Origin: an uncultured Anaerolineae bacterium
GTDB lineage: Bacteria; Chloroflexota; Anaerolineae; Anaerolineales; Villigracilaceae
DNA length: 46,763 nt
Reading direction: 5' to 3'
NCBI GenBank assembly: GCA_903910795.1
Contig: CAIWAX010000464.1
Coordinates: 1 to 46,763 of the forward strand
Below are positions 4,312 through 45,805 of this stretch, piece after piece. The first letter of the stretch is position 1, and the number at the start of each line of letters is the position of its first letter. Made by a program: the position numbers and the translations under genes. Under the pieces are notes generated by a model, which worked only from the letters and a program-made list of their open reading frames with translations, was not told the origin of the DNA and made no database searches.

Positions 4312-4335
4312 AAGGAAGGTACCCATCAGTTCAAT
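4312..4335 (+). repeat. 24-bp dispersed repeat, copy a (degenerate)
   Basis: The copy reads aaggaaggtacccatcagtt followed by caat. It differs from the consensus at several positions. It lies between the AAAGGAAGG Shine-Dalgarno-like stretch, which overlaps its start, and the iscX ATG at 4339. It is in the same reading frame as iscX ([13 protein letters not shown]), and no stop intervenes. Confidence 0.7.
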
Positions 4336-4338
4336 ATC

Positions 4339-4545
4339 ATGGCAGAGTCTCTTAATTGGGAAGCAACTTATGCGCTGGCGCTGGCTCTCAAAGCCGCTCA
4401 CCCGCTGGTTAGGCTGGAAGATGTCAGTCTCCAGATGATTTATAGATGGGCGCTGGAACTACCCGGCTTCGAAGACGATCCGGCTCTCGCCAATGATGAT
4501 ATCCTTCTGGCAATTTACCAGGACTGGTTCGAGGAGATGATATGA
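4339..4545 (+). CDS. iscX: IscX family Fe-S cluster assembly protein
   Basis: This small acidic protein of 68 residues matches the IscX pattern: LNW near the N-terminus, a central W, the [17 protein letters not shown] segment (E. coli has DFDDDPQASNEKILEAI) and a terminal W-[FL]-x-E. IscX binds IscS and iron and tunes Fe-S cluster assembly. It is the first gene after a strong promoter and overlaps nuoB by ATGA (4542-4545), so the two are translationally coupled. The Shine-Dalgarno-like AGGAAGG at 4313-4319 is unusually far (19 nt) from the ATG because the dispersed repeat lies in between. Initiation may use a non-ATG codon within the repeat. IscX next to complex I genes is an unusual context. 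Confidence 0.85.
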
Positions 4546-5195
4546 GTACAAATGAACTCAACTTGCCGGATTTCAACATTCCATCCGAGTTGGATGGCAA
4601 GGTAGCCATCACAACGCTTGACCGGGTTTACAACTTCGGGCGGCGTTCATCCATCTGGCCTATGATGTTCGGTCTGGCTTGCTGCGCGATCGAAATGATC
4701 GCGGCCCAGGCTGCCCGCTATGATATGGCCCGCTTTGGCATGGAAGTGATGCGCCCCAGCCCCCGGCAAAGCGATGTGATGATCGTCGCCGGTACCGTGA
4801 CCAAGAAAATGGTACCGGCCATCGTGCGCCTGTACAACCAGATGCCCGAGCCCAAATACGTGGTAGCCATGGGCGCCTGCGCTTCAGGCGGCGGCCCATT
4901 CAAGGAAGGCTACAACGTGGTGGCCGGGATCGACAAATTCCTACCTGTGGATGTTTACGTTCCAGGATGCCCGCCCACCCCGCAAGCGCTGGTGGCCGGG
5001 ATGATCAAACTCCAGGAAAAAATCGACAAACAATCCATCAGCAAGGTGCGTTGGTATCAAAAAGGCGGCGACTCAGTGGAAGTGGCTGTGCCCTTCCTCG
5101 GTCCGGATTTGATCGATCCACGCCGTATCCCTGAAATCAAGGCCAAGGCTGCCGAACTGGCCACGCCTTCCGCCCAAAACGCCCCGGAGAAATAA
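4542..5195 (+). CDS. nuoB: NADH-quinone oxidoreductase subunit B
   Basis: This 217-residue complex I subunit carries the N2 [4Fe-4S] cluster next to the quinone site. Ligands are visible as the tandem Cys47-Cys48 (GLACCAIEM), Cys113 (GACASGGG) and Cys143 (PGCPPTP). The C-terminal tail after about residue 190 is Ala/Lys-rich and not conserved. It is coupled to iscX by a 4-bp overlap, and nuoCD follows 1 bp after its stop. No nuoA precedes it, although nuoA is the usual neighbour. Confidence 0.96.
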
Positions 5196-5196
5196 G

Positions 5197-5220
5197 ATGG
5201 AAAGTACCCATAAATCCAAT
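5197..5220 (+). repeat. 24-bp dispersed repeat, copy b (forms the nuoCD start)
   Basis: This copy begins with the ATG that follows the nuoB ribosome-binding site GGAG and encodes MESTHKSN. The next codons are ATGGCA, so the unit is flanked on both sides by ATGG. Confidence 0.85.
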
Positions 5221-6966
5221 ATGGCAACCCCTGTACTCACTGAAACGATTGATCTGGCAGCCAAATTTCCAGGCCGGGTCACACCCGATGCCCGCCCCGG
5301 TTATTCCGGCTGGATGGTTGCAAAAGAAGCCCTGGTGGAAGTCTCCACGGCCATCCGGGATGAGTTGGGCTACGATTTGCTCTCCAACGTTACCGGCGTG
5401 GATTATCCCGAGCAATCCAAACTTGAAGTTGTCTATCATGTCTACAAAACCACGGGCGGCCCGGCTCTGACCTTTAAAACCCAGACCGAGCGCGTTGACC
5501 CGGCTGAGGTGCCCTCGCTGGTCTCTGTCTGGCCCGGCGCTGAACTCCAGGAGCGCGAAGCCTGGGACATGTTTGGCATTAAATTCACCGGACATCCCGA
5601 CCTGCGCCGAATTTTGATGTGGGAAGGTTTTGAAGGATTCCCGATGCGCAAAGATTACAAGGAACCCTTCCACGAAGAAGATAATAAACCCCTCAAAAGC
5701 CGTTGGCCCGAAGGCAAGCACAGTTATGCAGAAGCTCGCAACCCCTACGGCGATAACATCATGTTCAAACCCGGTTTTGATCCCGAGAAGTGGACGCCCA
5801 CCGATCCGGAAGAAGCCCTGTATGCGGCCCTGAAAAAATATAAGACGGAGGAGAAGGACGGCATAAAAACCGATCATATCATCGTTAATATGGGGCCGCA
5901 GCATCCATCCACACATGGAGTGTTCCGCGCGGTAGTAGTTCTGGACGGCGAAACGATTGTCAGCCTGAAACCTGTCATGGGGTATCTGCATCGCAACCAC
6001 GAGAAAATCGGCGAACGAAATACCTTCCTGCAGAACGTACCTTATACTGACCGGTTGGATTACTTCAACTCTATGTACAACGCCTGGCCGTATGCCCTGG
6101 CAGTTGAAAAATTAATGGGGCTCAAGGTGCCCGAACGCGCCGAATACATCCGTGTGATCATGGGCGAGCTCAGCCGCATCCAGAACCACCTGATCCTGTT
6201 TGGCATGTTGTGGAACGACCTGGGCGCTTATTTCACCCCGGCCCTGTACGCCTTTGAAGAGCGAGAATTGATCCTGGACATCTATGAAGCCGTGGCTGGC
6301 TCGCGTATGATGTGCAATTACCAGCGCTTTGGCGGCGTGGTGCGCGACATCGACGAAGCCAACATGAAGAAGATCAAGGATCTTGTTTTCGAACGCCTGC
6401 CGCGCAAGATCGAAGAATTTGACCGGCTGCTCTCAGAAAATGAAATCTTTGTGGCGCGCATGAAGGGTATCGGTTACCTGAGCCCTGAAGATGCCGTGGC
6501 CTATTCGGTCACCGGGCCAACACTGCGTGCTGCCGGTATCCCTTACGACATCCGCCGCGCTGACCCCTACGGAATTTACGACCGCTTTGAATTCGATATC
6601 CCCGTGCGTCACAACAGCGATCTGCTCGATCGTTACCTGGTGCGCGTGGATGAGATCCGCCAGTGTCTGCGCATTTTGCAGCAGGCCGTCAAGCAGATCC
6701 CCGAAGGCCCGTTCCTGGCTGGCAAGCCGCAATACCAGGTGCGCGTACCGGCTGGCGAAGTCTACGGACGCGTTGAAGCTCCCAAGGGCGAACTCGGATT
6801 TTATGTCATTTCCACTGGCAAGGGCAACCCCTATCGTTACCACATTCGCACTCCATCGTTTATCAACATCACCTCGGTGGAAAAAATGTGTGTGGGCACC
6901 AAGATCGCCGATTTTGTTACCATCCTGGGCATGGTTGATATCGTGCTCGGTGAACTCGACCGGTAG
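5197..6966 (+). CDS. nuoCD: Fused NADH-quinone oxidoreductase subunit C/D
   Basis: This 589-residue fusion has a NuoC (30-kDa) domain over about residues 15-190, including [24 protein letters not shown] linker follows, then a NuoD (49-kDa) domain from about residue 226 ([11 protein letters not shown]) to the conserved C-terminus DIVLGELDR. NuoD forms much of the quinone pocket with NuoB. The size matches the fused NuoCD of E. coli. The start at 5197 is supported by GGAG 7-8 nt upstream. The first eight residues come from the dispersed repeat. ATG 5221 would remove them but has no ribosome-binding site of its own. Confidence 0.96.
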
Positions 6967-6977
6967 GAGCGTGTATT

Positions 6978-7559
6978 ATGTATGGTCAAGGTTTAATAAA
7001 AGGTCTGAGCGTAACGTTTTCCCGGTTCTTCGAATCGTATACCGAGGATATCCGCTGGCTGTTCAAACGCTACAGCAAAGTGGAATTTCATTCCAGCAAA
7101 GACACGCGTGGCACATTCACGATCCAGTACCCGGAAGAGCGGTTGATCATCCCCGAAGAATTTCGTTATGTGCCATTCCTGGTGTATGATGAAGGTGAAA
7201 ACGGTGAGAAGAACATTCGCTGCACCTCCTGTGGTATCTGCGCCAAAGCCTGTCCTCCGCAGTGCATCTGGATCGTGCGTACCAGCGATCCCGTTACCGG
7301 ACGCCCACTTCCACAGCCGGCAGAATTCTATATTGACGCCGATATCTGCATGAACTGCGGTTTCTGTGCCGAGTACTGTCCCTTCGATGCGATCAAGATG
7401 GATCATGACTTCGAAATCGCATCCTACACTCGCAACTTGCTGAACAAAGAACGCTTGATGAAGCCGGCATCTTATTACGCGGGCATCCGCCCCAAGAATA
7501 ACGCCCGCGAAGAAGCCGCTCGTGCTGAAAAGGCGGCCGCCAAGGCTGCAAAGCCCTAA
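6978..7559 (+). CDS. nuoI: NADH-quinone oxidoreductase subunit I (2x[4Fe-4S] ferredoxin-like)
   Basis: This 193-residue protein has two classical CxxCxxCxxxC motifs: Cys82/85/88/92 (CTSCGICAKAC) and Cys124/127/130/134 (CMNCGFCAEYC). They bind clusters N6a and N6b, which connect the input module to NuoB. The C-terminal 30 residues are Ala/Lys/Glu-rich. It is the last gene of this cluster; a terminator-like hairpin follows. NADH-oxidising (E, F, G) and membrane (A, H, J-N) subunits are not in the window. Confidence 0.95.
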   Translation: MYGQGLIKGLSVTFSRFFESYTEDIRWLFKRYSKVEFHSSKDTRGTFTIQYPEERLIIPEEFRYVPFLVYDEGENGEKNIRCTSCGICAKACPPQCIWIVRTSDPVTGRPLPQPAEFYIDADICMNCGFCAEYCPFDAIKMDHDFEIASYTRNLLNKERLMKPASYYAGIRPKNNAREEAARAEKAAAKAAKP

Positions 7560-7598
7560 CTCGGCCAATTAATCACAACTCCGACAATGTTTGCATGA

Positions 7599-7638
7599 CT
7601 GCAGGTTAGGGTATAATCCTGACCTGCAGTGTCTTTTT
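7599..7638 (+). terminator. Intrinsic terminator of the nuo operon with a -10-like loop
   Basis: CTGCAGGTTAGG (7599-7610) pairs with CCTGACCTGCAG (7618-7629) with one mismatch. The loop is GTATAAT, and five T residues lie at 7634-7638. The loop contains an exact TATAAT (7612-7617), with TTGCAT at 7591-7596 only 15 bp upstream. The site may therefore double as a palindromic operator/promoter for the downstream mrp gene. Confidence 0.6.
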
Positions 7639-7727
7639 AATTTGCTGCATCATCTCCGTTAACCGCCACAAAAAACAACCCCCGCTGAAAATTAACGAGG
7701 GAAAACCATTATCCATAGGAATAATAA

Positions 7728-8801
7728 ATGACCGAAATCACCAGAGAAGCCGTACTTGCCGCCCTGGGTAAAGTACAGGAACCGGAATTACACCAGGATC
7801 TCGTCAGCCTGGGTATGGTAAGAGATTTGAATATCGGCGCAGATGGCGATGTCAGCTTCAGTGTCATGCTGACGACACCCGCCTGCCCGTTGCGCGGACA
7901 AATTGAAAAAGAAGCTCGTCAAGCCGTTGAAGCCCTGGGAGCCAAAAAAGTCAGCGTCAAGCTGGATTCAGATGTTCCCAATGATGGAAGGATGCGCGGG
8001 TTGGTGAATGCCCCGGTCCGAAACGCCATCGCGGTTGCATCCGGCAAGGGTGGGGTGGGCAAAAGCACGGTCGCGGTCAATCTGGCTGTTGCGCTCGCAA
8101 AAAGCGGCGCACGGGTCGGCCTGATGGATGCCGATATCTACGGGCCTAACATCCCAACCATGATGGGCGCCATGTTCATGCCCAATCCCAAGGGAGATAA
8201 GCTGCAGCCCGCCGTGGCCTACGGTGTCAAAATCATGTCGATGGGGTACCTGGTAAAACCTGGCCAGCCTCTTATTTGGCGGGGGCCAATGCTCAACTCT
8301 GCCATCCGCCAATTCATCAGCGATGTGGAATGGGGCGAGCTTGATTACCTGATCATCGACCTGCCGCCGGGAACGGGCGATGCGCCTCTCTCGCTGGCGC
8401 AGGCTTTACCACTCTCCGGCGTGGTGATCGTGACCCTGCCTCAGGCGGTTTCACTTGAAGATGCCAGCCGCGGTTTGGAAATGTTCCAAACCCTGAAAGT
8501 GCCCATTCTGGGAGTGATTGAGAACATGAGCTACCTGAGCCTGCCTGACGGCTCGCGCATGGATGTATTCGGTCAGGGCGGTGGCGAATCAATGGCCAGA
8601 CATTACAATGTGCCTTTCCTAGGCGCTGTTCCGCTCAATCCCAATGTGCGTATCGGCGGAGATTCTGGCAAACCGATTGTGATCACAGAACCTGATTCAG
8701 ATACAGCCAAAGCCCTGCAAAGTTTGGCAGAAACCGTGGCCGCGCGCGTCAGCCTGGCTGCCCTGAACGGCAGCGACGCCCCCACCATCAACGTTATCTA
8801 A
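7728..8801 (+). CDS. Mrp/NBP35-family ATPase with N-terminal MIP18 domain
   Basis: This 357-residue protein has an N-terminal MIP18 (DUF59) domain (about 1-80, with Cys53 in TTPACPLRG). A ParA/MinD-type P-loop ATPase domain follows, with the deviant Walker A GKGGVGKS at 106-113. Mrp/ApbC proteins carry Fe-S clusters to apo-proteins, which fits the neighbouring iscX, nuo and ricT genes. The CxxC pair that normally follows GVIENMS is absent and replaced by [14 protein letters not shown], as in the actinobacterial-type variant. Cluster binding by the usual bridging mode is therefore unlikely. The start is supported by TAGGAAT shortly before ATG 7728. Confidence 0.9.
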
Positions 8802-8837
8802 TCTACAGCCCTAATAATGGTAGTTATGCAGCCGAAT

Positions 8838-8861
8838 ATGGAAAGTACCCATAAGTTCAAT
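8838..8861 (+). repeat. 24-bp dispersed repeat, copy c (forms the ricT N-terminus)
   Basis: This copy is a full match to the consensus and encodes MESTHKFN. It is immediately followed in frame by the conserved PSP1 start IVGIRF. No other ATG lies between the repeat and the conserved domain. Confidence 0.85.
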
Positions 8862-9839
8862 ATTGTTGGTATCCGTTTTAGTAAAATAGGAAAAGTCTAT
8901 CATTTTGACGCTACACCCATCCCGGATATAGCGGTGGGTGATTATGTAGTTGTTGATACTGTACGCGGCCGTCAGATTGGGGATGTCATGCAGTTCATTC
9001 AGAATCCTCCGCCGCCCTCCGAAGGCACATGGAAACTCATTGAACGAAAAGCCACTCCCGCTGACTTGCTGCTGCGCCAAACCTGGGCGCAAAAACAGAC
9101 CGAGGCCATGATTAACTGTCGCGCGCGCGCCTCCGAACTCAAGCTGGTGGGGGTCAAAATCATCGCGGCCGAATATTCCTTTGATGGCGCACGGCTGGGC
9201 TTTATGTTCAGCACCGAAACCGAAGACAAGGTCGATCTGAAAAGCCTGCGCAAGGATATGCAGCGACTTTATCCTCAGACCCAGGTTGAAATGCGCCAGA
9301 TCGGCCCGCGCGATGTAGCCAAATTTCTGGGTGGCATGGGCGCCTGCGGCCTGGAAACACGCTGCTGCTCCAAATTCCTGACGGAATTCAGCCCAATCTC
9401 GATCAAAATGGCCAAAGAACAAGGCATTTCCCTGACTCCCACCGAAATCACCGGGATGTGCGGGCGTCTGCGCTGTTGTCTGATATATGAATATGAACAG
9501 TATGTCGCGGCTCGCAAGGAACTGCCGAAACGCGGCAAGCGCGTGGTAACCCCGGATGGCGAAGGCAAGGTTTTGGACACCTACCCGCTGCGCAACGTGG
9601 TTCAGGTTGAACTCGATCCGCGCGTGGTTGAACATACCGAACATCACGATCGCCCCGAACGGCCCGAACGATTTGAACGACCCGAACGACCGATCGTGCG
9701 GGAATACGAACGCGATCTGTTAGAGCCATGGGACGAGTTAGAGGCGCTACGGCGTAAAGCCGGAGAGCCATGCGACAAACATGATGGCGGAAATTGCGAT
9801 TGCGGCAAAAACGAGAAAAAAACAGCACCCAAAAAGTAA
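8838..9839 (+). CDS. ricT: PSP1-domain protein RicT/YaaT-like, Fe-S associated
   Basis: This 333-residue protein has an N-terminal barrel-like part and the PSP1 C-terminal domain. Six cysteines cluster at 170, 176, 177, 208, 213 and 214 (GACGLETRCC and MCGRLRCC). In Bacillus, RicT with RicA and RicF binds [4Fe-4S] clusters and helps RNase Y mature mRNAs. After about residue 265 a charged RPERPERFERPERP tract gives a disordered tail. In-frame ATGs also exist at 8817 and 8826, and none has a clear ribosome-binding site. I chose the repeat-encoded ATG by analogy with nuoCD. It lies 36 bp after mrp and may be co-transcribed. Confidence 0.85.
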   Translation: MESTHKFNIVGIRFSKIGKVYHFDATPIPDIAVGDYVVVDTVRGRQIGDVMQFIQNPPPPSEGTWKLIERKATPADLLLRQTWAQKQTEAMINCRARASELKLVGVKIIAAEYSFDGARLGFMFSTETEDKVDLKSLRKDMQRLYPQTQVEMRQIGPRDVAKFLGGMGACGLETRCCSKFLTEFSPISIKMAKEQGISLTPTEITGMCGRLRCCLIYEYEQYVAARKELPKRGKRVVTPDGEGKVLDTYPLRNVVQVELDPRVVEHTEHHDRPERPERFERPERPIVREYERDLLEPWDELEALRRKAGEPCDKHDGGNCDCGKNEKKTAPKK

Positions 9840-9859
9840 TCCAATGAAACCAGGTCAGG

Positions 9860-9916
9860 CAGCACGCCGGTCTACCCATGCATGGGACGATCAAGTATGT
9901 GCTGTCTGATTTTTTT
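9860..9916 (+). terminator. Intrinsic terminator after ricT
   Basis: CAGCAC (9860-9865) pairs with GTGCTG (9899-9904). The loop holds the nested perfect palindrome CCCATGCATGGG (9875-9886). Seven T residues follow at 9910-9916. Confidence 0.6.
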
Positions 9917-9955
9917 ATTCAAAAGCAAAGTTTTTTACAAAAGGAAAATTTCAGT

Positions 9956-10681: not shown

Positions 10682-10682
10682 C

Positions 10683-14439: not shown

Positions 14440-16260
14440 ATGACCCAGCGTATTGTCAATGATTTTTCCATCGTAGTAGGAACCGCCAACGGTTCGGGCT
14501 CGCAGACGTCAAATGCGACGATTCTGCGCGCGCTGTTCAAGATGGGCATCCCTGTCTCGGGCAAGAACTTGTTCCCGAGCAACATCCAGGGTCTGCCGAC
14601 ATGGTACATTATCCGCGCCAGCAAGGATGGTTACACCGCCCGCCGGGATGAACGTGAGATAGTGGTTGCCATGAATCCTAATTCTTTCGAGAAAGACCAG
14701 GCCAGCGTTACGCCTGGCGGGGCTTTCTATTATGATGATTCAATTAAAGCACCCGTAACCCGCACGGATATTGTTGTCTACCCAATGCCGGTCAAGCAGA
14801 TTGTCCGCAACGACCCGGATATTCCCTCCAATCTGCGCGACATGATCGCCAATATGGTTTATGTGGGCATCCTGGCCCAGATGATTGGCATTGACATGGA
14901 AAAAATCGACGCGGCGCTCAGCTTCGCCTTCAAAGGCCGCCGAAAAGCAGTTGACCTGAATCTGAACGTAGCCAAGTCTGCCGCAGCCTGGGCCAAAGCT
15001 AATCTGGAAAAGAAAGACCCTTATTACATCGAACCAATGAACAAAACCGACGGTCTGATCATGACTGACGGCAACACGGCAGCCGCGATTGGCTCCATCT
15101 ATGGCGGCGTGCAGTTTGTTGGCTGGTACCCGATCACACCCGCCACCAGCCTGGCCGAAGAGTTGAACGAATACCTGCCCAAGCTGCGCAAGACACCGGA
15201 AGGCAAGGAAACCTACGCCGTAGTACAGGCTGAGGATGAACTGGCCGCCATTGGCATGTGCGTGGGTGCCGGCTGGTCGGGTTTACGCGCCATGACCTCC
15301 ACTTCGGGGCCAGGTTTGAGCCTCATGACAGAGTTCGTTGGTCTGGCCTACTTTGCTGAAATTCCGCTTGTCATCTGGGATGTAACTCGCATCGGCCCCA
15401 GCACCGGCCTGCCCACCCGCACATCTCAAGGCGATTTGAATTTCGCTGCGAATATGGGTCATGGCGACACCGATAACATCATCCTGCTGCCTGGCTCTGT
15501 CAATGAATGTTTTGAATTCGGCTGGCGCGCTTTTGATATCGCCGAACGCATCCAAACACCTGTCATCGTATTGAGCGACCTGGATTTTGGTATGAACCAG
15601 TGGATGTCGGAACCGTTCAAATACCCGGATGTTCCCATGGATCGCGGCAAGATTTTGTGGGAAGAAGATATCAAGAAATTAACTGAACCCTGGGGTCGCT
15701 ATCTGGACAAAGACGGCGATGGTATCCCCTACCGCACTCTGCCGGGCAATCGCCTGCCGGGAAGCTCCTACTTCACCCGCGGCACCGGTCACGATCCCTA
15801 TGCCCGCTACTCAGAGGAAGCCGGTGTTTGGGAAACCAACATGGCGCGCATTAAGAAGAAGTTCACCACTGCGCTGGAATACCTACCCAAACCGGTGATC
15901 GAAAATGTGGATGGCGCTCGGAAAGGCATCATCACCTTTGGCTCCACCATCACCGCTGTCCATGAGGCACGCGCGTTGCTCGAGACAGAACAGGGCATTA
16001 AAACCAACCTTTTACGGCTGCGCGCCCTGCCCATCGCAACTGAAGCGAAAGAATTTATTGCCCAGCAAGATAAAGTTTATATTGTGGAAATGAATCGTGA
16101 TGGTCAGCTATACGAAGAAATATTAATCGCCATGCCTGAATTAGCCTCGAAGCTTGTCTCAGTGGCTTACAGCGACGGCATGCCGCCGACAGCCAAACGC
16201 ATCACGAAGGAAATTATGGCAATGGAAAATACCCATAAGTTCGGTAAGGAGAGCAAATAA
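14440..16260 (+). CDS. korA: 2-oxoacid:ferredoxin oxidoreductase, fused gamma-alpha subunit
   Basis: This 606-residue protein joins the gamma domain (about 1-185, start IVVGTANGSGSQT) to the alpha/pyrimidine-binding domain (from about 200; ITPATSLAEELNEYLPK, AEDELAAIGMCVGAGWSG, TSTSGPG). It oxidatively decarboxylates 2-oxoglutarate or another 2-oxoacid to an acyl-CoA, reducing ferredoxin, together with KorB. GAGGAG precedes ATG 14440. The last residues (MENTHKFGKESK) come from a copy of the dispersed 24-bp repeat, which also leads into the korB ribosome-binding site GGTAAGGAGAG. Substrate choice (2-oxoglutarate or branched-chain/other 2-oxoacid) cannot be read from sequence. Confidence 0.9.
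   Translation: MTQRIVNDFSIVVGTANGSGSQTSNATILRALFKMGIPVSGKNLFPSNIQGLPTWYIIRASKDGYTARRDEREIVVAMNPNSFEKDQASVTPGGAFYYDDSIKAPVTRTDIVVYPMPVKQIVRNDPDIPSNLRDMIANMVYVGILAQMIGIDMEKIDAALSFAFKGRRKAVDLNLNVAKSAAAWAKANLEKKDPYYIEPMNKTDGLIMTDGNTAAAIGSIYGGVQFVGWYPITPATSLAEELNEYLPKLRKTPEGKETYAVVQAEDELAAIGMCVGAGWSGLRAMTSTSGPGLSLMTEFVGLAYFAEIPLVIWDVTRIGPSTGLPTRTSQGDLNFAANMGHGDTDNIILLPGSVNECFEFGWRAFDIAERIQTPVIVLSDLDFGMNQWMSEPFKYPDVPMDRGKILWEEDIKKLTEPWGRYLDKDGDGIPYRTLPGNRLPGSSYFTRGTGHDPYARYSEEAGVWETNMARIKKKFTTALEYLPKPVIENVDGARKGIITFGSTITAVHEARALLETEQGIKTNLLRLRALPIATEAKEFIAQQDKVYIVEMNRDGQLYEEILIAMPELASKLVSVAYSDGMPPTAKRITKEIMAMENTHKFGKESK
16222..16245 (+). repeat. 24-bp dispersed repeat, copy d (end of korA)
   Basis: The copy encodes MENTHKFG in the korA frame, ten bases before the korA stop codon. 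It differs from the consensus at the AGT codon and at the last codon. The sequence just after it supplies the korB ribosome-binding site. Confidence 0.75.
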
Positions 16261-17383: not shown

Positions 17384-17457
17384 ATTAATCGCTATAATAT
17401 GCACCTATCGTCAAGTTACAATGAATTATCTTCAGCAATGCACAGCACAATGTTTGT

Positions 17458-17463
17458 TACAAT
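17458..17463 (+). promoter_or_regulatory. -10 box TACAAT six bases before the aspA start codon
   Basis: TACAAT is followed by only six bases (AGTCCC) before ATG 17470. This spacing predicts a leaderless mRNA; no Shine-Dalgarno sequence is present. The -35 region is weak. Confidence 0.45.
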
Positions 17464-17469
17464 AGTCCC

Positions 17470-18894
17470 ATGATACAAAATACCCATAAGTTCAATAAAA
17501 CAGCCCCTACCCGCACCGAACATGACCTGTTGGGTGAACGCGAAGTTCCGTCGGCCAGTTACTACGGCATTCACACGCTGCGCGCGATGGAAAATTTCCC
17601 CATCAGCGGCACCACCATTCAGGCATACCCTGCACTGATCCAGGGTCTGGCTTTTGTCAAGGAAGCCTGCGCCCAGGCAAACCTGAAGCTGGGCCTTTTG
17701 GATACAAAACGTGCGCATGCCATTACGCGCGCCTGCCAGGAAATCCGCGCCGGGAAACTACGCAATCAATTCGTGGTGGATGTCATCCAGGGAGGCGCCG
17801 GAACATCCACCAACATGAATGCCAACGAGGTTATCGCAAACCGCGCATTAGAAATTATGGGCTTTGAGCGCGGCCAGTACAACGAGTTGCATCCGCTTGA
17901 ACATGTTAATCTCAGTCAAAGCACAAACGATGTATATCCCACGGCGCTCAAAGTGGCGCTCGGTTTTGAAATCAAACGTCTTGTGGAAGCCATGGAAGTT
18001 TTGCGCATCGAGTTTGATTTAAAAGCCAGGGAATTTTCGGATGTATTGAAAATGGGCCGCACCCAACTTCAGGATGCCGTGCCCATGACACTTGGTCAGG
18101 AATTCAGCACGTACGCGGTCATGCTGCACGAAGACCAGCAGCGCCTGCGTGAAGCTGCCCTGCTCATCCAGGAGATCAACCTGGGCGCCACCGCAATCGG
18201 AACGGGCATCAACGCCCCGGCTGATTATGCACCCCTGGCTTGCGAGGCACTCTCCATCCTGACCGGCATGCAGTTCATTACTGCCGGAAACCTGGTCGAA
18301 GCAACCCAGGATGCGGGCGCATTTGTGCAACTTTCGGGCGTGCTCAAACGCGTGGCGGTTAAATTATCAAAGGTCTGCAATGACCTGCGGCTGCTTTCCT
18401 CCGGGCCGCGCGCCGGGCTGGGCGAAATCAACCTGCCGCCCGTCCAGGCTGGTTCAAGCATTATGCCCGGGAAAGTCAACCCGGTCATTCCAGAAGTAGT
18501 CAATCAGATTGCCTTTGAAGTGATTGGCAATGATGTTACAGTTTCTTTCGCTGCCGAGGCGGGACAATTGCAGTTGAATGCGTTTGAGCCGATCATCGCC
18601 CGCAACCTGCTGAACAGCCTGATCTACCTGCGCCAGGGCTGTCTGATTCTGGCCGAGCGCTGTGTGCGCGGCATCACCGCCAACCGTGACCGCCTGGATG
18701 ACATTGTCAAAAACTCAATTGGCATCGTGACGGCCCTGAACCCCTATATTGGTTATGAAAACGCCAGCATGGTAGCGCGTGAAGCCTATGCCACCGGCAA
18801 GGGGGTGAACGAAATCGTGCTGCAAAAGGGGCTGCTGACGCGCGAACAGCTGGAAGAAATCCTGCGCCCCGAAAACCTGACTCGGCCAAAATAA
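17470..18894 (+). CDS. aspA: Aspartate ammonia-lyase
   Basis: This 474-residue protein of the fumarase/aspartase superfamily converts aspartate to fumarate and ammonia. The signature GSSIMPGKVNPV (about 334-345) is the flexible catalytic loop. TRTEHDLLGEREVPSASYYGIHTLRA at the N-terminus and NLSQSTNDVYPTA are aspartase-type. The first 14 residues are an extension relative to the family start; residues 3-9 derive from the dispersed repeat (IQNTHKFN). The start codon lies six bases after a -10 box, so the gene may be leaderless. It fits amino-acid fermentation with ald and rocD. Confidence 0.93.
   Translation: MIQNTHKFNKTAPTRTEHDLLGEREVPSASYYGIHTLRAMENFPISGTTIQAYPALIQGLAFVKEACAQANLKLGLLDTKRAHAITRACQEIRAGKLRNQFVVDVIQGGAGTSTNMNANEVIANRALEIMGFERGQYNELHPLEHVNLSQSTNDVYPTALKVALGFEIKRLVEAMEVLRIEFDLKAREFSDVLKMGRTQLQDAVPMTLGQEFSTYAVMLHEDQQRLREAALLIQEINLGATAIGTGINAPADYAPLACEALSILTGMQFITAGNLVEATQDAGAFVQLSGVLKRVAVKLSKVCNDLRLLSSGPRAGLGEINLPPVQAGSSIMPGKVNPVIPEVVNQIAFEVIGNDVTVSFAAEAGQLQLNAFEPIIARNLLNSLIYLRQGCLILAERCVRGITANRDRLDDIVKNSIGIVTALNPYIGYENASMVAREAYATGKGVNEIVLQKGLLTREQLEEILRPENLTRPK
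17477..17496 (+). repeat. 24-bp dispersed repeat, copy e (within the aspA N-terminus)
   Basis: The conserved core AAAATACCCATAAGTTCAAT is in frame with aspA (NTHKFN). The first bases of the unit are changed and one codon is added after the ATG at 17470. Confidence 0.75.
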
Positions 18895-39470: not shown

Positions 39471-39505
39471 GCGTTACTACCGAATCTGAACGCACAATTT
39501 CAACC

Positions 39506-39542: not shown

Positions 39543-39591
39543 TTGTTAAATATGGGATATTTTACATCCAAATTCCCGACAAATATCAGGT

Positions 39592-39618
39592 TTGAACCAG
39601 ACCCGAGGCGGGTATAAT
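39592..39618 (+). promoter_or_regulatory. Promoter of the radical SAM gene, with the -10 box seven bases before ATG
   Basis: TTGAAC (39592-39597) and TATAAT (39613-39618) are 15 bp apart. ATG 39626 follows after seven bases (CGGGCGC), with no Shine-Dalgarno sequence. The transcript is therefore likely leaderless. Confidence 0.6.
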
Positions 39619-39625
39619 CGGGCGC

Positions 39626-41560
39626 ATGATAACTCCAGCCGAAATTGAAAACAGACTTGATAAGATACTTTTAAAGGTAAGCAAGCCGGGCCGCTATGTT
39701 GGCGGCGAAATGAATATCACCATCAAGGATTGGGCCGCGGTGGAGACCAGCGTGGCGCTGATTTTCCCTGATATTTATGATATCGGTGTATCCAACGTGG
39801 GCCTCAAAATCCTGTATGACCAGGTCAACCAGCGTGAAGATGCCCTGGCCGAACGGGCTTATGCACCCTGGCGCGATATGGAAGACCAGATGCGCGCCAA
39901 CGGCATTCCGCTGTATTCCCTGGAAACTTACCACCCACTGGCGGCCTTTGACCTGATCGGTTTTTCCCTGCCGTATGAAACGTTATACACCAACGCATTA
40001 AATATTCTGGACCTGGCTGGTTTACCGGTCAAGTCAATGGAACGTGATGAGAACCACCCAATTGTGATCGCTGGCGGTCATGCCTGCATGAATCCGGAAC
40101 CCATGCACGCTTTCATTGATGCCTTTGTGATCGGCGAGGGTGAAGAAGTTATCCATGACATCATCAACACCATTCAAAAGGTAAAAGGTACCCGTACTCA
40201 CCCCATGCCTTACCAGCGCAATGATTTACTGCGAGCGCTGGCTCAAATCCCCGGCGTATATGTACCCATCTTCTACAGTGTGAAATATCTGGATGACAAC
40301 AGCATTGAAACAGTAACACCTATCATCCCAGAAGCCCCCAAATTGGTGATCAAGCGCATGGTGCCCAAACTGCCAGCGCCGCCCACTACCTTCATTGTTC
40401 CCAACATCGAGGCCGTTCACAATCGCATTTCAATTGAAATTATGCGCGGCTGCACCCGCGGCTGCCGCTTTTGCCACGCTGGCATGATCAACCGACCAGT
40501 ACGCGAACGGTCAGTGGAAGAAGTCGTCAAGGCAGTGGATAATGCCATCCGCTCGACAGGTTTTGAAGAACTGGCATTATTGTCGCTGTCATCTTCTGAT
40601 TACACGAATATTCTGGAGCTTGTAACAGCGGTTGGGGATCATTTTGGAGATAAACACCTGGCAATCTCACTGCCATCCCTGCGCATTGAAACCGTTTCAG
40701 TGGATTTGATGGATAAACTGCGTGACCGGCGCGGCACAGGTTTCACACTGGCTCCCGAAGCCGCGACTGAACGCATGCGCCGCATCATCAACAAATTCAT
40801 CCCGGATGACCAACTTCTGGAAACCGCGCACGAAATTTACAGCCGGGGTTGGACAACCATCAAGCTGTACTTTATGATCGGGCACCCTTCCGAAACATTG
40901 GAAGATGTGCAGGCGATTGCCGATCTTTGCAAAAAGGTGTTGGCAGTAGGGCGCAAGGTAATCGGGTTTAAAGCCAAGGTCCACGCTGGCGTCAGCACTT
41001 TTGTCCCCAAACCGCATACACCATTCCAATGGGTGGCCTGCGACACAGTTGAACAAATAACCCTCAAACAAAACCTGCTCAAACGTGAGTTGCGCGATAA
41101 GAACATCAAACTATCCTGGACACCGCCCGATGACACCATGCTTGAAGCCTGGCTAACGCGTGGCGACCGCCGGATGAGCGAGGTGATCTATACCGCCTGG
41201 AAAAATGGCGCGAAATTCGATGCCTGGCAGGAAGAACGCCGCTTTGCCATCTGGACAGCAGCCTTTGAAGAGCACGGATTGGAGCCCGGTTTCTACACTC
41301 ACCGTCCGCGCCGCACCGATGAAATCTTCCCATGGGATCATATCAGCTCAGCAGTTCGGAAGAATTTCCTGTTTCAAGATTTCCGCCAATCCCTGGAAGG
41401 TCAAGTTCGCGTCGATTGCCGCCAGCATTGTTTCGCCTGCGGTATTTTGCCAACCTTCAACAGCCTGCGTCGCGAAAACCCCGGCGAGTATTGGAAGTGC
41501 CCAGTCTTAAAATCACCGGCACAACCTGTTGAAACTGCCTTGCCTGTGCTGGGAGGTTGA
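39626..41560 (+). CDS. TIGR03960-type radical SAM protein with N-terminal B12-binding-like domain
   Basis: This 644-residue protein has an N-terminal cobalamin-binding-like region (to about 220), then a radical SAM core whose cluster motif is CTRGCRFC at about 276-283. DCRQHCFACGILP and WKCPVL near the C-terminus add cysteines that may hold a further cluster. This is the long half of a TIGR03960/TIGR03936 pair. Its partner (DUF2344) is encoded at 42009, separated by a small membrane protein gene. The reaction is not established; a role in RNA or cofactor modification has been suspected. The start is supported by a TATAAT box seven bases upstream. Confidence 0.88.
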   Translation: MITPAEIENRLDKILLKVSKPGRYVGGEMNITIKDWAAVETSVALIFPDIYDIGVSNVGLKILYDQVNQREDALAERAYAPWRDMEDQMRANGIPLYSLETYHPLAAFDLIGFSLPYETLYTNALNILDLAGLPVKSMERDENHPIVIAGGHACMNPEPMHAFIDAFVIGEGEEVIHDIINTIQKVKGTRTHPMPYQRNDLLRALAQIPGVYVPIFYSVKYLDDNSIETVTPIIPEAPKLVIKRMVPKLPAPPTTFIVPNIEAVHNRISIEIMRGCTRGCRFCHAGMINRPVRERSVEEVVKAVDNAIRSTGFEELALLSLSSSDYTNILELVTAVGDHFGDKHLAISLPSLRIETVSVDLMDKLRDRRGTGFTLAPEAATERMRRIINKFIPDDQLLETAHEIYSRGWTTIKLYFMIGHPSETLEDVQAIADLCKKVLAVGRKVIGFKAKVHAGVSTFVPKPHTPFQWVACDTVEQITLKQNLLKRELRDKNIKLSWTPPDDTMLEAWLTRGDRRMSEVIYTAWKNGAKFDAWQEERRFAIWTAAFEEHGLEPGFYTHRPRRTDEIFPWDHISSAVRKNFLFQDFRQSLEGQVRVDCRQHCFACGILPTFNSLRRENPGEYWKCPVLKSPAQPVETALPVLGG

Positions 41561-41565
41561 TCGGT

Positions 41566-42012
41566 GTGACAGAAAATAAAAACCATACTGAACGATTTGC
41601 TAAGCAAATCGTGGGTACTTTCGATGCAAGTAAAAACTGGCGCTTCCACCTGACTTTGTGGGATGTTCTGGTGGGGCTGCCCGCCGGGTTGCTGGTTTTC
41701 ATGGCAACTGTGCTCTTCAGCACCCTTCTCAGCCCGCATACACCCCTGCCAGTTTTCGTTCCCCCCGTATTACTGGCGGTTTCGTGCCTGCTCGTCGGAA
41801 TTTTAACGGGAATAACACGGCTGCGCCAGGGGCCAGCCACCGGAATGGTGGCCGGAATTGTCACGGCAGGCATCCTTTGTTATCTGTGGCTGGTCGCCGC
41901 CCCGGGGGATCAGTTCAATCCGCTGGTGATCGGCCCGGCAGGCATGCTTATCAGCCTGCTTGTCTGTCCAACCAGCGGCTGGCTTGGAGCCAGACTTAGA
42001 AAGGCATTATGA
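41566..42012 (+). CDS. Small integral membrane protein between the radical SAM pair
   Basis: This 148-residue protein starts at GTG 41566 with GGGAGG nine bases upstream. The N-terminal 25 residues are hydrophilic. About four hydrophobic stretches follow (VLVGLPAGLLVFMATVLF, VFVPPVLLAVSCLLVGIL, MVAGIVTAGILCYLWLVA, LVIGPAGMLISLLVC). I recognise no family. Its ATGA overlap with the next gene and close spacing to the radical SAM gene make one transcription unit, so the three products may act together or merely share expression. Confidence 0.72.
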   Translation: MTENKNHTERFAKQIVGTFDASKNWRFHLTLWDVLVGLPAGLLVFMATVLFSTLLSPHTPLPVFVPPVLLAVSCLLVGILTGITRLRQGPATGMVAGIVTAGILCYLWLVAAPGDQFNPLVIGPAGMLISLLVCPTSGWLGARLRKAL

Positions 42013-42635
42013 GAATCAGGATTACATTTTCAAAAACCGGCGCTCTGCGCTATATAGGCCATCTCGATCTGCATAAGCTCTGGGAGCGCACCTCACGACG
42101 CGCTGGGCTCGATTTGATATACAGCCAGGGTTTCCATCCGCAGCCAAAAATTCAACTCGCCTCGGCCCTGCCGCTTGGTTTCTCCTCCATCTGTGAATTG
42201 ATCGACATGTGGATTAACGGCGAGGTTGATCTCGAGAAGCTGCCTGAACGATTGTCAAAGGCTGTACCACCCGGTTTGAGTATTCAAAAAGTGGAACAAG
42301 TGGACGAAAAGAGCCCTCCGCTGCAAACCCAGGTGATTTCATCCGAATATGATGTTGTCCTGCCGGAATGGCTTGACCTTGGGGCAGTTGAGGACAAAAT
42401 TTCAGCCTGTTTGCAGGCTGATACTTTGCCAAGAGAGCGGCGCGGTAAGACCTATGATCTGCGCCCATTGATCGAGCAATTGAATTTAAGCGAACGCGAC
42501 ACGCAGGCACACCTCTTGATGCGGCTGACCGCGCGCGAAGGCGCCACAGGCCGCCCCGAGGAAGTGCTGGATGCACTTGGCATCCCTTATGAAGAAACAC
42601 GAGTGCAACGAACAAGGCTGATATTTAAAGAATAA
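42009..42635 (+). CDS. DUF2344 (TIGR03936) radical SAM-linked protein
   Basis: This 208-residue protein has the DUF2344 pattern: IRITFSKTGALRYIGHLDLHKLWERTSRRA and YSQGFHPQPKIQLASALPLGFSSICELIDMW. It is fused to or adjacent to TIGR03960 radical SAM proteins in many bacteria. The function is not proven. It overlaps the membrane protein gene by ATGA, and its stop codon lies in the loop of a terminator hairpin. Confidence 0.9.
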   Translation: MRIRITFSKTGALRYIGHLDLHKLWERTSRRAGLDLIYSQGFHPQPKIQLASALPLGFSSICELIDMWINGEVDLEKLPERLSKAVPPGLSIQKVEQVDEKSPPLQTQVISSEYDVVLPEWLDLGAVEDKISACLQADTLPRERRGKTYDLRPLIEQLNLSERDTQAHLLMRLTAREGATGRPEEVLDALGIPYEETRVQRTRLIFKE

Positions 42636-42644
42636 ATATCAGCC
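42616..42644. terminator. Bidirectional terminator hairpin
   Basis: GGCTGATATTTA (42616-42627) pairs perfectly with TAAATATCAGCC (42633-42644); the loop AAGAA lies just before the TAA stop of the DUF2344 gene, which falls in the stem. It lies between convergent genes. Confidence 0.7.
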
Positions 42645-42647
42645 TAT

Positions 42648-43322
42648 TTATGTTCTACTCACCCCAAACAGTCTTTTTATATTCAGGGCTGTAAAGTCAG
42701 GTATGACATACTGGACTTGCGGCAGCCTGGCAACTTCCCTGGCATCATGCGAAGTGGAGACCAGGACAACATCCATCCCGGCGCGGCCAGCGGCCTCAAC
42801 CCCGTTTAACGCATCCTCAAAAACCAGGCAGCCAGACTGTCCCACGCCCAAAGATTGGGCAGCTTTTAAGTATAGGTCTGGATGCGGTTTGCCCCTCATA
42901 ACATCCTGACCGCTGACCACACGTTTGAAATAATGACGCAGACCAATGCCATCCAGGATAAAGCGGACATTATCTGGCGGCGCTGCGGTGGCAACCGCCA
43001 TGGGAATGTCCATCTCGCTGGCAAATTCCAGCAATGGCTGAAGTCCCGGCACTGGTTTGCGTAAACGAATGTAACCCTCGCGGTAAAGAGCTTCCTTCCT
43101 GTCGCTCCAAAAAGCTACTTCCGCATCCGAAGCCCTCGGGCCAAGTAAAGCGCGGAAAACTTCGTTTGTTTTTTTCCCGTAAAGAGAGCGATGGAATTCA
43201 TTCATATTGGCGGGCAGCATAACACCAGCCTCCCGCATGGTTTCCTCCAGGGCCGTTCGGTGGTAGGCCATGTTATCAACCAGCGTTCCATCCATGTCAA
43301 ATATCAGCGCAAGATAATTCAT
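42648..43322 (-). CDS. HAD-superfamily phosphatase (beta-phosphoglucomutase-like)
   Basis: This 224-residue HAD hydrolase has motif I DMDGTLVDN (about 9-17) and motif II in VATAAPP. Motif III Lys lies in RGKPHPDLYLKAAQSLGV, and motif IV in VFEDALNGVEAAGRAGM. The cap domain is alpha-helical (subfamily I). Closest resemblance is to beta-phosphoglucomutase and phosphatase-type HADs. The substrate is unknown. A degenerate repeat copy lies 40 bp upstream (43362-43379). Confidence 0.88.
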   Translation of the reverse strand: MNYLALIFDMDGTLVDNMAYHRTALEETMREAGVMLPANMNEFHRSLYGKKTNEVFRALLGPRASDAEVAFWSDRKEALYREGYIRLRKPVPGLQPLLEFASEMDIPMAVATAAPPDNVRFILDGIGLRHYFKRVVSGQDVMRGKPHPDLYLKAAQSLGVGQSGCLVFEDALNGVEAAGRAGMDVVLVSTSHDAREVARLPQVQYVIPDFTALNIKRLFGVSRT

Positions 43323-43361
43323 GATGCTATTCTATCAATCCTCCAATTCGGCTGTAATTCT

Positions 43362-43379
43362 CCATTTGGGTACTTTCTG
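43362..43379 (-). repeat. Possible degenerate copy of the 24-bp repeat
   Basis: Read on the minus strand it is CAGAAAGTACCCAAATGG, matching GAAAGTACCCA of the unit. It is upstream of the HAD gene but not fused to it. Only about half of the unit is conserved, so chance similarity cannot be excluded. Confidence 0.3.
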
Positions 43380-43445
43380 AAAAAAATAGTGACGGGGTAG
43401 ATTTCACCGGCTTACCATTAACCTCGAATTACATTACGAAAAGGG

Positions 43446-43510
43446 TTATACCTGTTCGCGTCTGGAAATGGGTGAGCACAGCCCATGTGCCCTGCGGGTC
43501 TGGCGAAACA
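43446..43510 (+). ncRNA. Structured intergenic segment, possible small RNA
   Basis: A TTATAC -10-like box (43446-43451) precedes a GC-rich segment with an outer TTCGC/GCGAA pairing and an ATGGG/CCCAT hairpin. This leads directly into the strong hairpin at 43511. There is no coding frame of note. I could not match it to SRP, 6S, cobalamin or ZTP RNA patterns, so this is only a candidate. Confidence 0.2.
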
Positions 43511-43555
43511 AAATACTCCCGAAGCAGGCCGTCTTCCGGCGCTTCGGGAGTATTT
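43511..43555. terminator. Intrinsic terminator of htpG
   Basis: AAATACTCCCGAAGC (43511-43525) pairs perfectly with GCTTCGGGAGTATTT (43541-43555). On the minus strand TATTTTGTTTC follows, so it ends the htpG transcript about 55 nt after its stop. It could also end a plus-strand small RNA. Confidence 0.75.
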
Positions 43556-43610
43556 GCAATGTTTGATTTTAAATTTCTAAAGTTTTGACAGCCTCGGAAA
43601 TCTAACCCGT

Positions 43611-45506
43611 TTAATTCTTCTCGAGCGCCAGTTGGATGAGATCCTGAACACGCTGTACCATGCTGGATGGATCGGGATGCAGACCCTCGACAAGCATGGC
43701 AGAGTCAAAAATTTGCTCAATCACCATCTTCTGCAAATCAGACTCCGGGTCAAGTTTGAGCAGGCTTTTCAGGATTGGATGTGAAGGATTAAGTTCAAGG
43801 ATTTTCTTGGAATCCTCATATTCCCTGCCTAGATAGCGATAAACACGCTGCATTTCAGGATTGAGAGCCCCTTCAGGCTCAACCAGCCGGGCCACAGACT
43901 GTGAAAGGCGCGTACTCGCATGCACATCCGCCACACGTTCACCCAGCACCGCTTTAAAACGTTTTACAAGACCATCAAAATCAGCTTCGGCAATCTTTTC
44001 TTTTTCAGCCTCAGGGTCCCTGGGTTTTTCATTATCAAGTTTCCCAGCCTGGGCAACATTCTGCAGCTCAAAATCCTTATATTTATGCAGCCCCATCAAC
44101 ATGAATGAATCGATGGGCTCTGTCAGCAGCAAAACTTCCGTACCCTGGGCCTGGAAGTAATCCAGGTGTGGGCTGCGCAACACTGATTTAGGGTCTTCGC
44201 CCAAAATGAAGTAAACGTTTTTCTGCTCGGGCTGCATCCGGCCAACATAATCTTCCAGTGAAGACCAAGTCTCGGGGTGCAAATTAGTTTTGAAGCGCAG
44301 CAAAGGGTATATCTTTTCGGCATCTGGCTGGTTAGCCGCAACACCCTGTTTCAAAAACGGACCGTATTCCTTCCAGAAAATTGCATACTTATCGGGGTCA
44401 TTTTTGGCCAGATTTTCAAATTCTTTATTGAGTAGGTTTGTCAGGGCCTTCTTCAAACGCGCCATCAAAGCTGAGGATTGGATGGTTTCTCTGGATACGT
44501 TCAGTGGCAAGTCTTCTGAATCGATCACACCCTGGATAAAGCGCAGATGCTCTGGCAGTAAATCTTTATTGTATTCATCGATCAGGATGTTCCGGCAGTA
44601 AAGTTTTAGGCCATCATCCTTGCGTATTGAAAAAACAGCGCGCTCAGCTTTTTTAGGCACATACAGCAACGCGTAAAACTGCACCGGTGCATCAGTAATG
44701 GAATGAACATGCAGCAGCGGTTCTTCAAAATCCAGCGTCATCTGCCGGTAGAAGTCCTTATAGGCATCTCCCATCACATCCTGCTTTGAGGTGCGCCAGA
44801 TGGCTATTTGTTTATTAATCTGGGTTGTTTCAGTACCCATACCCGCAGGGCCCATGTAAATGGGAAAACTAATATAGTCTGAGTGCTTGCGAATGATTTC
44901 CCTCAAGCGGTATTCTTCGGCAAATTCAGCCGCATCTTCCTTGAGTTTAATCTCTATGATGGTGCCGCGCTCGGCTTTCACTGCGGGGGCAATCTGATAG
45001 TTGTCTTCGCCGGTAGCGTACCATGTGACCGGTTCATCATCCGGCCGGAAGGAATGCGAGGTAACCTTGACCCATTCAGCCACCATGAAGACTGAGTAAA
45101 AACCCACGCCAAATTGGCCAATAACCTGAGAGAAATCCCCTTTCTGATCCTTGGCAACTTCCAAAAATTTACGCGCGCCAGATTGGGCGATGGTGCCCAG
45201 ATTCTCAATCATTTCACTGCGGTTCAACCCAATGCCAGTGTCCTGGATGGTCAGCATGCGTGTTTCCTTGTCTGCTGAAACCCGGATACACAGCTCCGTG
45301 TTTGCATCCAGTACCACCTGATTGGTCAGCATTTCAAAACGGAAACGGTTCAGTGCGTCAGAGGCGTTTGAAAGTAATTCCCGTAGAAAGACATCCTTTT
45401 CCTTGTACAGGGAATGGATCAGGATATTCAATAGCTGTTTGGTCTCAGCCTTGAATGAAAAAGATTCGGCATTATCAATAACGGGGGTTTGGTTGGAATC
45501 GTCCAT
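43611..45506 (-). CDS. htpG: Molecular chaperone HtpG (Hsp90)
   Basis: This 631-residue protein is full-length for bacterial Hsp90. The N-terminal GHKL ATPase domain shows the sequence SLYKEKDVFLRELLSNASDALN (about 33-54), DTGIGL (about 92-97) and IGQFGVGFYSVFMVA. The middle domain has PLNVSRE, and the C-terminal dimerisation domain ends with QLALEKN. AGGAG precedes the ATG. The 180-nt leader contains a terminator hairpin 24 nt before the start codon and a sequence able to compete with it, suggesting attenuation. Confidence 0.96.
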   Translation of the reverse strand: MDDSNQTPVIDNAESFSFKAETKQLLNILIHSLYKEKDVFLRELLSNASDALNRFRFEMLTNQVVLDANTELCIRVSADKETRMLTIQDTGIGLNRSEMIENLGTIAQSGARKFLEVAKDQKGDFSQVIGQFGVGFYSVFMVAEWVKVTSHSFRPDDEPVTWYATGEDNYQIAPAVKAERGTIIEIKLKEDAAEFAEEYRLREIIRKHSDYISFPIYMGPAGMGTETTQINKQIAIWRTSKQDVMGDAYKDFYRQMTLDFEEPLLHVHSITDAPVQFYALLYVPKKAERAVFSIRKDDGLKLYCRNILIDEYNKDLLPEHLRFIQGVIDSEDLPLNVSRETIQSSALMARLKKALTNLLNKEFENLAKNDPDKYAIFWKEYGPFLKQGVAANQPDAEKIYPLLRFKTNLHPETWSSLEDYVGRMQPEQKNVYFILGEDPKSVLRSPHLDYFQAQGTEVLLLTEPIDSFMLMGLHKYKDFELQNVAQAGKLDNEKPRDPEAEKEKIAEADFDGLVKRFKAVLGERVADVHASTRLSQSVARLVEPEGALNPEMQRVYRYLGREYEDSKKILELNPSHPILKSLLKLDPESDLQKMVIEQIFDSAMLVEGLHPDPSSMVQRVQDLIQLALEKN

Positions 45507-45529
45507 TTGGGTTACTCCTGTAATAAATT

Positions 45530-45582
45530 AAAAAAACTTCAGGTATCCTGAAGCCGAGTTGAAGGCGGTAAAGTCAGGATAC
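45530..45582 (-). promoter_or_regulatory. Terminator/antiterminator-like leader of htpG
   Basis: On the minus strand, CTTCAGG-ATA-CCTGAAG (45553-45537) is followed by seven T residues (45536-45530), an intrinsic terminator just before htpG. Its 5' part, TCAGGATAC (45551-45543), is also exactly complementary to GTATCCTGA at 45582-45574 upstream. The two hairpins exclude each other, which is the layout of an attenuator or riboswitch expression platform. Confidence 0.55.
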
Positions 45583-45694
45583 TGTTTTGCAAATCCAATC
45601 CTGCCTGCTAAAAAATATCGAAGTCTACGTCCCGGCCTTGGTTCGAAGAAAAAAGCATCCGTACTGCGGCAGGTGAGTTAACTTTACGAAAAAT

Positions 45695-45722
45695 ATTCTA
45701 ATTGACGCGTATCAATGCTCAA
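45695..45722 (-). promoter_or_regulatory. Candidate htpG promoter
   Basis: On the minus strand TTGAGC (45722-45717) and TAGAAT (45700-45695) are separated by 16 bp. The spacer holds the inverted repeat ATTGA-TACGCG-TCAAT. Transcription would start near 45688, giving a 180-nt leader. No CIRCE element is present. Confidence 0.45.
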
Positions 45723-45805
45723 TAAGAGGATTGTAAGAAAATCATTAACGCGTCCATACTGAACTTATGGGTACTTTCCATACTGAACTTATGGGTACTT
45801 TCCAT
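45719..45805 (-). CDS. Possible 28-residue small ORF made of two repeat units
   Basis: The frame reads MESTHKFS twice, then MDALMIFLQSSY and a TGA stop. It starts inside the end of the alpha/beta hydrolase gene in a different frame. The hydrolase frame carries a GGGG stretch just before the ATG, a poor ribosome-binding site. Whether it is translated is unknown. It is listed because the same peptide begins other genes in the window. Confidence 0.25.
   Translation of the reverse strand: MESTHKFSMESTHKFSMDALMIFLQSSY
45758..45805 (-). repeat. 24-bp dispersed repeat, tandem copies f1 and f2
   Basis: Two identical 24-bp units lie head to tail (45805-45782 and 45781-45758), followed by another ATGG. 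This tandem defines the period and the unit boundaries. The first unit supplies the TAA stop codon of the alpha/beta hydrolase (GKYP-stop). Confidence 0.9.

Follow-up and report, generated by a model that had tools for sequence, protein, structure and literature searches.

A 24-bp dispersed repeat of an Anaerolineae bacterium: a probable very small, targeted mobile element

Introduction

To our knowledge, mobile repeats as small as the 24-bp unit considered here are known from few lineages. The small dispersed repeats (SDRs) of Nostoc punctiforme, reportedly described by Elhai et al. in 2008, are said to be 21-27 nt long and to occur as nested copies. Some Nostoc SDR families have a common secondary structure. 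Passages of two published accounts characterize SDRs as ~20 bp long, tandemly repeated and possibly mobile (PMC2884548), and SDR5 as precisely inserted between nucleotides 3 and 4 of the octamer HIP1 (PMC4390886). In excerpts of two further papers, Rickettsia palindromic elements (RPEs) are in-frame repeats in many unrelated protein genes (PMC10969869, PMC2229807). An excerpt on repetitive extragenic palindromic (REP) sequences places some of them inside genes and some at NH2 ends, with the caution that many NH2-end cases may be extragenic; for some REPs, too, insertion in frame is on record (PMC3733652). Among the open-licence literature matches listed, none dealt with this 24-bp repeat or with SDRs outside cyanobacteria.

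Here, we analyse a 24-bp unit in contig CAIWAX010000464.1 of assembly GCA_903910795.1, an uncultured Anaerolineae bacterium of the Villigracilaceae. The whole contig, positions 1 to 46,763, is called the window; it is contig C464 of a draft genome (G000) of 5.01 Mb in 496 contigs. An original prediction made from the window had offered three readings of the unit: a minimal mobile or amplifying sequence that inserts at start codons, a shared regulatory sequence, or an N-terminal tag. We conclude that the unit is probably a very small, non-autonomous, targeted mobile repeat. The first of the three readings was partly supported. For a mobile or amplifying sequence speak empty sites, both orthologous and paralogous, as well as a target preference, the dispersal of the copies and, as far as tested, their restriction to one species; insertion at start codons holds for a minority of sites.

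With Nostoc SDRs the unit shares its 24-bp size, a high copy number (424), the presence of several families in one genome, tandem copies, precise insertion into a short target and empty counterparts. It differs from them in its degenerate target (CNNN^AWNG), in start-codon and in-frame insertion and probably in sequence, and from some SDR families in that a single unit has no stable structure. Like RPEs, it is found in frame, in ricT, a korA-like gene, nuoCD and aspA, but RPEs are about 105-150 bp long and palindromic with a long stem, whereas the unit is 24 bp, non-palindromic and without a stable stem. REP and REPIN sequences, which go with RAYT transposases, are likewise small and of high copy number; REPs are, however, stem-loops tagged GTAG or CGTC, and the unit lacks both of these tags as well as a stable stem. 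Its tandem arrays with a 24-bp period recall minisatellites and variable number tandem repeats, yet of 123 arrays 93 consist of one dispersed unit each, and the compared sites have empty counterparts. Unlike miniature inverted-repeat elements of DDE transposons, it shows no terminal inverted repeat, and since the net insertion equals the unit, any target duplication is at most the 1-bp A at all sites. Nostoc SDRs are, in our comparison, the nearest known kind, and the in-frame side of the unit resembles RPEs.

A single genome here combines several hundred copies with empty sites, a target that can be measured and siblings of 27, 25 and 15 bp, which makes it testable how such repeats move. The repeat also illustrates that small insertions can restore a start codon, lengthen a protein at its N-terminus or provide a stop codon, a point of importance both to the annotation of genes and to the evolution of protein ends.

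Results and Discussion

Copy number and species distribution

An 18-mer core of the unit, searched with up to 3 mismatches, gave seven matches in the window, compared with a mean of 0.02 and a largest value of 1 in 100 shuffles. Column counts over 176 units defined a length of 24 bp and the consensus ATGGAAAGTACCCATAAGTTC[A/G][G/A]T. The original prediction had proposed counting copies in the complete genome and in relatives; the count gave 424 matches in the own genome and 0-3 per relative, while the pattern read backwards, as a control, gave 1 + 1 matches in the own genome. In a 1.27-Mb sample of this genome, partly selected for unit-bearing contigs, we found 178 units in 123 arrays; 93 of the arrays were single, 15 double and 15 contained 3-5 units. 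Single matches with 4 mismatches were excluded before these counts, and in three arrays (L058, L137 and L221) what was scored as the final unit is a 39-bp cousin, so that the right flank was misread.

Of the 100 relatives, 10 were congeners, 50 shared the family and 40 the order. At no more than 2 mismatches, six of them had 1-3 matches and the remainder none, against 358 in the own genome. A 15-mer from the left arm, with at most 1 mismatch, gave 348 matches in the own genome against 3 for the 10 congeners together. An exact 19-mer searched across 84,980 species, a set from which records of the own genome may be excluded, hit two loci, L039 and L040; it was not found in viral contigs. As far as could be tested, amplification of the unit is confined to one species. 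The window matched no Rfam family at gathering score.

Both loci were considered as candidates for horizontal transfer and rejected. L039 (CAIULK010000088.1) is a 57-kb contig of a metagenome-assembled genome labelled Rhodospirillaceae. It differs from own contig C386 by 7 mismatches in 7,940 bases, has two unit sites in common with it and is the only unit-bearing contig in its genome (3 matches in a genome search); we read it as a mis-binned contig. L040 is a lone exact match without unit-like flanks, and ~1.9 such matches are expected by chance in 257 Gb.

A draft assembly of 496 contigs with several arrays at contig ends raises the question of whether the repeats are an assembly or binning artefact. 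This is extremely improbable: single units lie within conserved genes, their differences from congeners are clean 24-nt steps, and the contig of the other public assembly carries the same two unit sites.

Empty sites in congeners and in a larger repeat

Each of the five plus-strand copies in the window was aligned to nine congener loci, giving 45 comparisons. An uninterrupted single 24-nt gap was obtained in 15 of these, and none of the five sites was without one. The copy at 4312-4335 (+), which lies before the iscX start (insertion CACA^ATCATGG), was missing as a single gap from four loci (L141, L142 and L143 in register, L146 shifted by 3), the other five being ragged. For the copy on the nuoCD start codon (5197-5220, +), three loci had the single gap (in register in L141, shifted by 4 in L142 and by 7 in L143) and six were ragged. 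The copy in frame within ricT (8838-8861, +; MQPN-[MESTHKFN]-IVG) corresponded to a single gap in five loci (L153, L157, L158, L159 and L161), and four were ragged; placement of this gap is ambiguous by 3-4 nt, in part because the flank and the unit alike end in AAT.

Near the 3' end of the korA-like gene, the in-frame copy at 16222-16245 (+; ...IMA-[MENTHKFG]-KESK-stop) was absent, in register, from L162 and L164; L170 lacked 24 nt net in two gaps and the remaining six loci were unaligned. A diverged copy follows the aspA start codon (17473-17496, +; M-[IQNTHKFN]-KTAP). Here L166 alone had the single gap, in register, L163 and L168 differed by 24 nt net in pieces and six others by 20-40 nt net; the boundary of this unit is less certain because the clean gap occurs in one of nine loci. 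Wherever the gap was in register, the insert lay immediately 5' of an A.

Orthologue alignment had been set beforehand as the test of whether the extra residues are ordinary conservation. The cleanly aligning congener loci lack the extra residues of NuoCD, RicT, the KorA-like protein and AspA, and the residues are therefore not due to ordinary conservation. On contig C319 (L124), nine arrays were aligned to congener loci. The one readable site, 16756, is an in-frame insert with ragged boundaries; the remaining arrays did not align or gave no information.

Paralogous empty sites came from a larger repeat, TTTCACTTGGGCATTAAATCGTG ... TTATGCCCAAACCAAGACACGGGTGAG, with 17 copies in the own-genome sample. 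Six of these are empty, with a 12-nt spacer; five contain an additional 24 bp, three 39 bp and one 63 bp, and two lack the right anchor. We did not count the occupied copies as independent because they may stem from few insertions that were copied together with the host repeat.

Target preference

Units were removed by script from the arrays, and the rejoined sites were compared with 7,420 nearby A positions. Sixteen of the 123 arrays were left out, being irregular or within 40 bases of a locus end, which gave 107 sites. The preferred target was C-N-N-N^A-W-N-G. Position +1 was A in 96% of sites. C at -4 was present in 61 of 107 (0.25 nearby; p = 1 × 10−12), T at +2 in 67 (63%; 0.27 nearby; p = 1.5 × 10−14), G at +3 in 40 (37%; 0.22 nearby; p = 2 × 10−4), G at +4 in 61 (57%; 0.23 nearby; p = 2 × 10−14) and A at +5 in 48 (0.26 nearby; p = 4 × 10−5). 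Both -4 C and +4 G were found in 27% of sites. The preference also holds when the 64 sites that lie outside genes are taken by themselves. The 39- and 63-bp cousins have similar flanks (31 copies, some within the larger repeat), and in 23 arrays of a 27-bp sibling family +1 was A in 96% and +4 G in 74%, although 5 of the 23 right flanks are degenerate tandem units.

The main rival explanation is template switching during replication, in which the polymerase switches to a unit or array already present and comes back via ATGG microhomology, so that no dedicated enzyme is needed. The right flank does resemble the start of the unit (at +1 to +4 in the proportions given above), and 30 of the 123 arrays contain 2-5 units. 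Moreover, units ending in ..CAAT are clustered, in 12 of 15 arrays on C319 and the window compared with 8 of 103 elsewhere; the two contigs were picked after inspection, and the clustering suggests local spread. Template switching, however, predicts microhomology on both sides. The unit ends in ..CAGT, and on the entry flank only -4 C is strong, -3 is weak and -1 and -2 show no preference for T or G; furthermore, most copies among those listed are whole units in register. We consider this explanation somewhat unlikely.

Position, reading frame and effects on genes

A home-made fifth-order model, applied to the sequences after removal of the units, called 931 genes; expected values were obtained from sites preceding an A, weighted by the target profile. 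The 107 sites fell into 59 intergenic (23 expected), 5 at start codons, 2 at stops and 41 inside genes. All five start-codon sites lie exactly on the codon in the sense direction, compared with 0.68 expected (Poisson p = 7 × 10−4). The proposal that the unit inserts at start codons thus describes a real excess, and does not apply to most copies. Within gene limits, 26 of 43 sites were no more than 75 nt from a gene end, a zone that makes up 13.8% of gene length.

The intergenic excess, and the finding of 8 arrays in divergent spacers against 1 in convergent ones, could reflect a regulatory or protein-binding site common to many genes. Arguing against this are the tandem arrays, the units that lie within genes or at their ends and the congeners that have the same genes and no unit. 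The orientation in co-directional spacers is even as well, 14 along and 13 against transcription (47 intergenic arrays were scored for orientation, 11 of them without a neighbour). A shared regulatory role, as proposed originally, is thus very unlikely.

In the sense orientation, phase 0 (MESTHKFS) was found in 15 sites (21.9 expected) and phase 1, which contains a stop, in 5 (12.5 expected), all five at a distance of 4 to 74 nt from the end of a gene. In the antisense orientation, phase 0 (TELMGTFH) was found in 13 sites (17.2 expected) and the hydrophobic phase 2 (LNLWVLS) in 3 (17.8 expected), all three 2 nt inside a start codon. Antisense phase 1, which has a stop if the unit ends in AGT or AAT and none if it ends in GGT, was not found (6.5 expected). 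Deep inside genes, the unit thus avoids frames with a stop as well as the hydrophobic antisense frame. Selection acting on a target-inserted unit would leave this picture, and would explain the length divisible by three and the common frame of the window copies, both noted in the original prediction, without any tag function. A purposeful tag at protein N-termini is disfavoured, since copies are read in either orientation and in several different frames, and also terminate genes.

The window copies illustrate these effects. At nuoCD (..AAG|ATGGAA..AAT|ATGGCA), the ATG of the unit takes over, MESTHKSN is added before the native MATPV and the spacing of the upstream GGAG to the first ATG is unchanged. 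Landing on a start codon thus seems sometimes to add eight amino acids without breaking the gene. The unit also yields internal in-frame inserts and stop codons. At ricT, contrary to the original list, it does not form the start: it is internal and follows the conserved MQPN, the ATGCARCC start being retained in congeners, and the N-terminal peptide of the unit-bearing RicT would begin MQPNMESTHKFNIVG. The iscX copy, also on the original list, supplies no start; it begins AA instead of AT, therefore contains no ATG, and lies 3 nt ahead of the native start.

Mechanism

If the unit is a targeted mobile repeat, copies would enter as complete units (net +24 bp), directly ahead of an A, at sites like CNNN^AWNG and with no fixed target duplication of more than 1 bp; at some sites the units would then multiply in tandem. 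Insertions would persist where they are least harmful, that is between genes, near gene ends and on start codons, and deeper within genes only in open frames. Because the unit begins with ATG, the start and the frame would be rebuilt upon insertion into a start codon. Such a scheme implies a putative activity in trans that recognises both the unit and the target sequence.

Several observations weigh against this interpretation. Thirty of the 45 congener comparisons were ragged, in pieces or unaligned, as expected of poorly conserved gene ends. In no case did one strain have a filled site and another the vacant one, and the unit may or may not be active at present. The 27-bp sibling lacks the -4 C preference (35% in 23 arrays), and since both families begin with ATGG, the right-hand preference could be likeness to the unit's own start. 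The position and frame counts rely on home-made gene calls and on a profile of the target that was derived from the same arrays. Sense phase 2 (WKVPISSV) was not avoided (5 versus 6.9 expected), and a general filter against hydrophobic inserts is therefore not supported. A single unit has neither terminal inverted repeats nor a significant fold (z -0.46 and -0.71). Finally, no mobiliser was found in the own genome and eight congeners in a search confined to Y1 transposase and reverse transcriptase, leaving IS110 and the serine and tyrosine recombinases unsearched. Y1 transposase gave 1 match in the own genome, in a 565-codon frame on C496, and 0-3 in the congeners; the C496 match is the one that bears on a cognate RAYT gene.

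Reverse transcriptase gave 3 matches in the own genome and, in the congeners, 0 in four, then 1, 1, 5 (G004) and 8 (G008). These matches bear on mobility through an RNA copy, which is reported to have been proposed for some Nostoc SDRs. The own genome and G004, two of the three genomes with the most matches, are the richest in the 27-bp sibling, and three tandem units fold better than shuffles (z -2.90 on one strand, -1.58 on the other). G008, however, which has the most reverse-transcriptase matches, has zero 24-bp units and 2 sibling matches, and a single unit does not fold. Reverse transcription of an RNA copy is, in our judgement, quite unlikely.

More tentatively, the targeted mobile repeat might belong to a class of ultra-small mobile DNA, with units of 24-39 bp that lack inverted repeats and a putative enzyme that reads the eight-base target CNNN^AWNG. 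A length divisible by three and a leading ATG would allow such units to pass through start codons and reading frames, and the class would be a genome-wide source of new protein ends. We regard this wider proposal as possible, though doubtful.

Related repeat families

The 39- and 63-bp cousins have the same ends as the 24-bp unit. In the 39-bp cousins, either a palindrome, CGATTTGCTWAGCAAATCG, replaces TAAG or there is an internal 15-bp segment, CCCACAGGGCAAATG; the 39-bp cousin folds well. The own-genome sample also contains tandem families of 27, 25 and 15 bp. For the 27-bp family, ATGGAATAATCCCGGTACTTGATTGGG, the own genome gave 117 matches, G004 gave 25 and each of the remaining nine congeners 0-4. 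The family is both tandem and dispersed (for example L069:10773-10854, L134:1-125 and L216:2538-2619), and one of its frames reads WNNPGTLLG-like. Tandem 15-bp units with CCCACAGGG occur at L230:14157-14186, L137:8983-9023 and L044:10163-10218, and a 15-mer like them sits within the 24-bp unit to give a 39-mer. No array of the 24-, 27- or 15-bp families was found in the relatives' loci (273 kb).

Several different repeats of the own genome end 3' in GTGAGCAGTTAC followed by A-rich DNA (for example L043, L072, L089 and L137, among the 40 of 72 matches listed). This common end looks as if it were the recognition end of one enzyme.

Further features of the window

Every copy on the original list was recovered in the window, and its gene names hold as well: Pfam and NCBIfam identify IscX, NuoC with NuoD, RicT, the alpha subunit of a 2-oxoacid:acceptor oxidoreductase (korA-like) and AspA. 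The tandem pair at 45758-45805 is present as listed; we specify that it is on the minus strand and that it supplies a stop codon. The first unit of the pair (45782-45805, -) provides, by translation, the stop of the gene at 45789-46571 (-), an alpha/beta-hydrolase-fold protein (Pfam, NCBIfam) that ends NFLGNGKYP-stop. The second unit (45758-45781, -) was identified from the sequence.

The list had overlooked a 39-bp cousin at 41587-41625 (-), which has the same ends as the unit and the palindrome CGATTTGCTTAGCAAATCG replacing TAAG. It is open within a plus-strand open reading frame from 41557 that has no Pfam family.

In some congeners, a TATAAT- or TACAAT-like box lies a few bases before the starts of iscX, ricT and aspA (~4290-4340, 8800-8840 and 17455-17480). 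These genes may be leaderless; if so, iscX would gain a leader through the insert at 4312. At 43347-43387 (-), CAGAAAGTACCCAAATGGAG is like the left arm of the unit at 2 mismatches and may be a decayed copy or a chance match.

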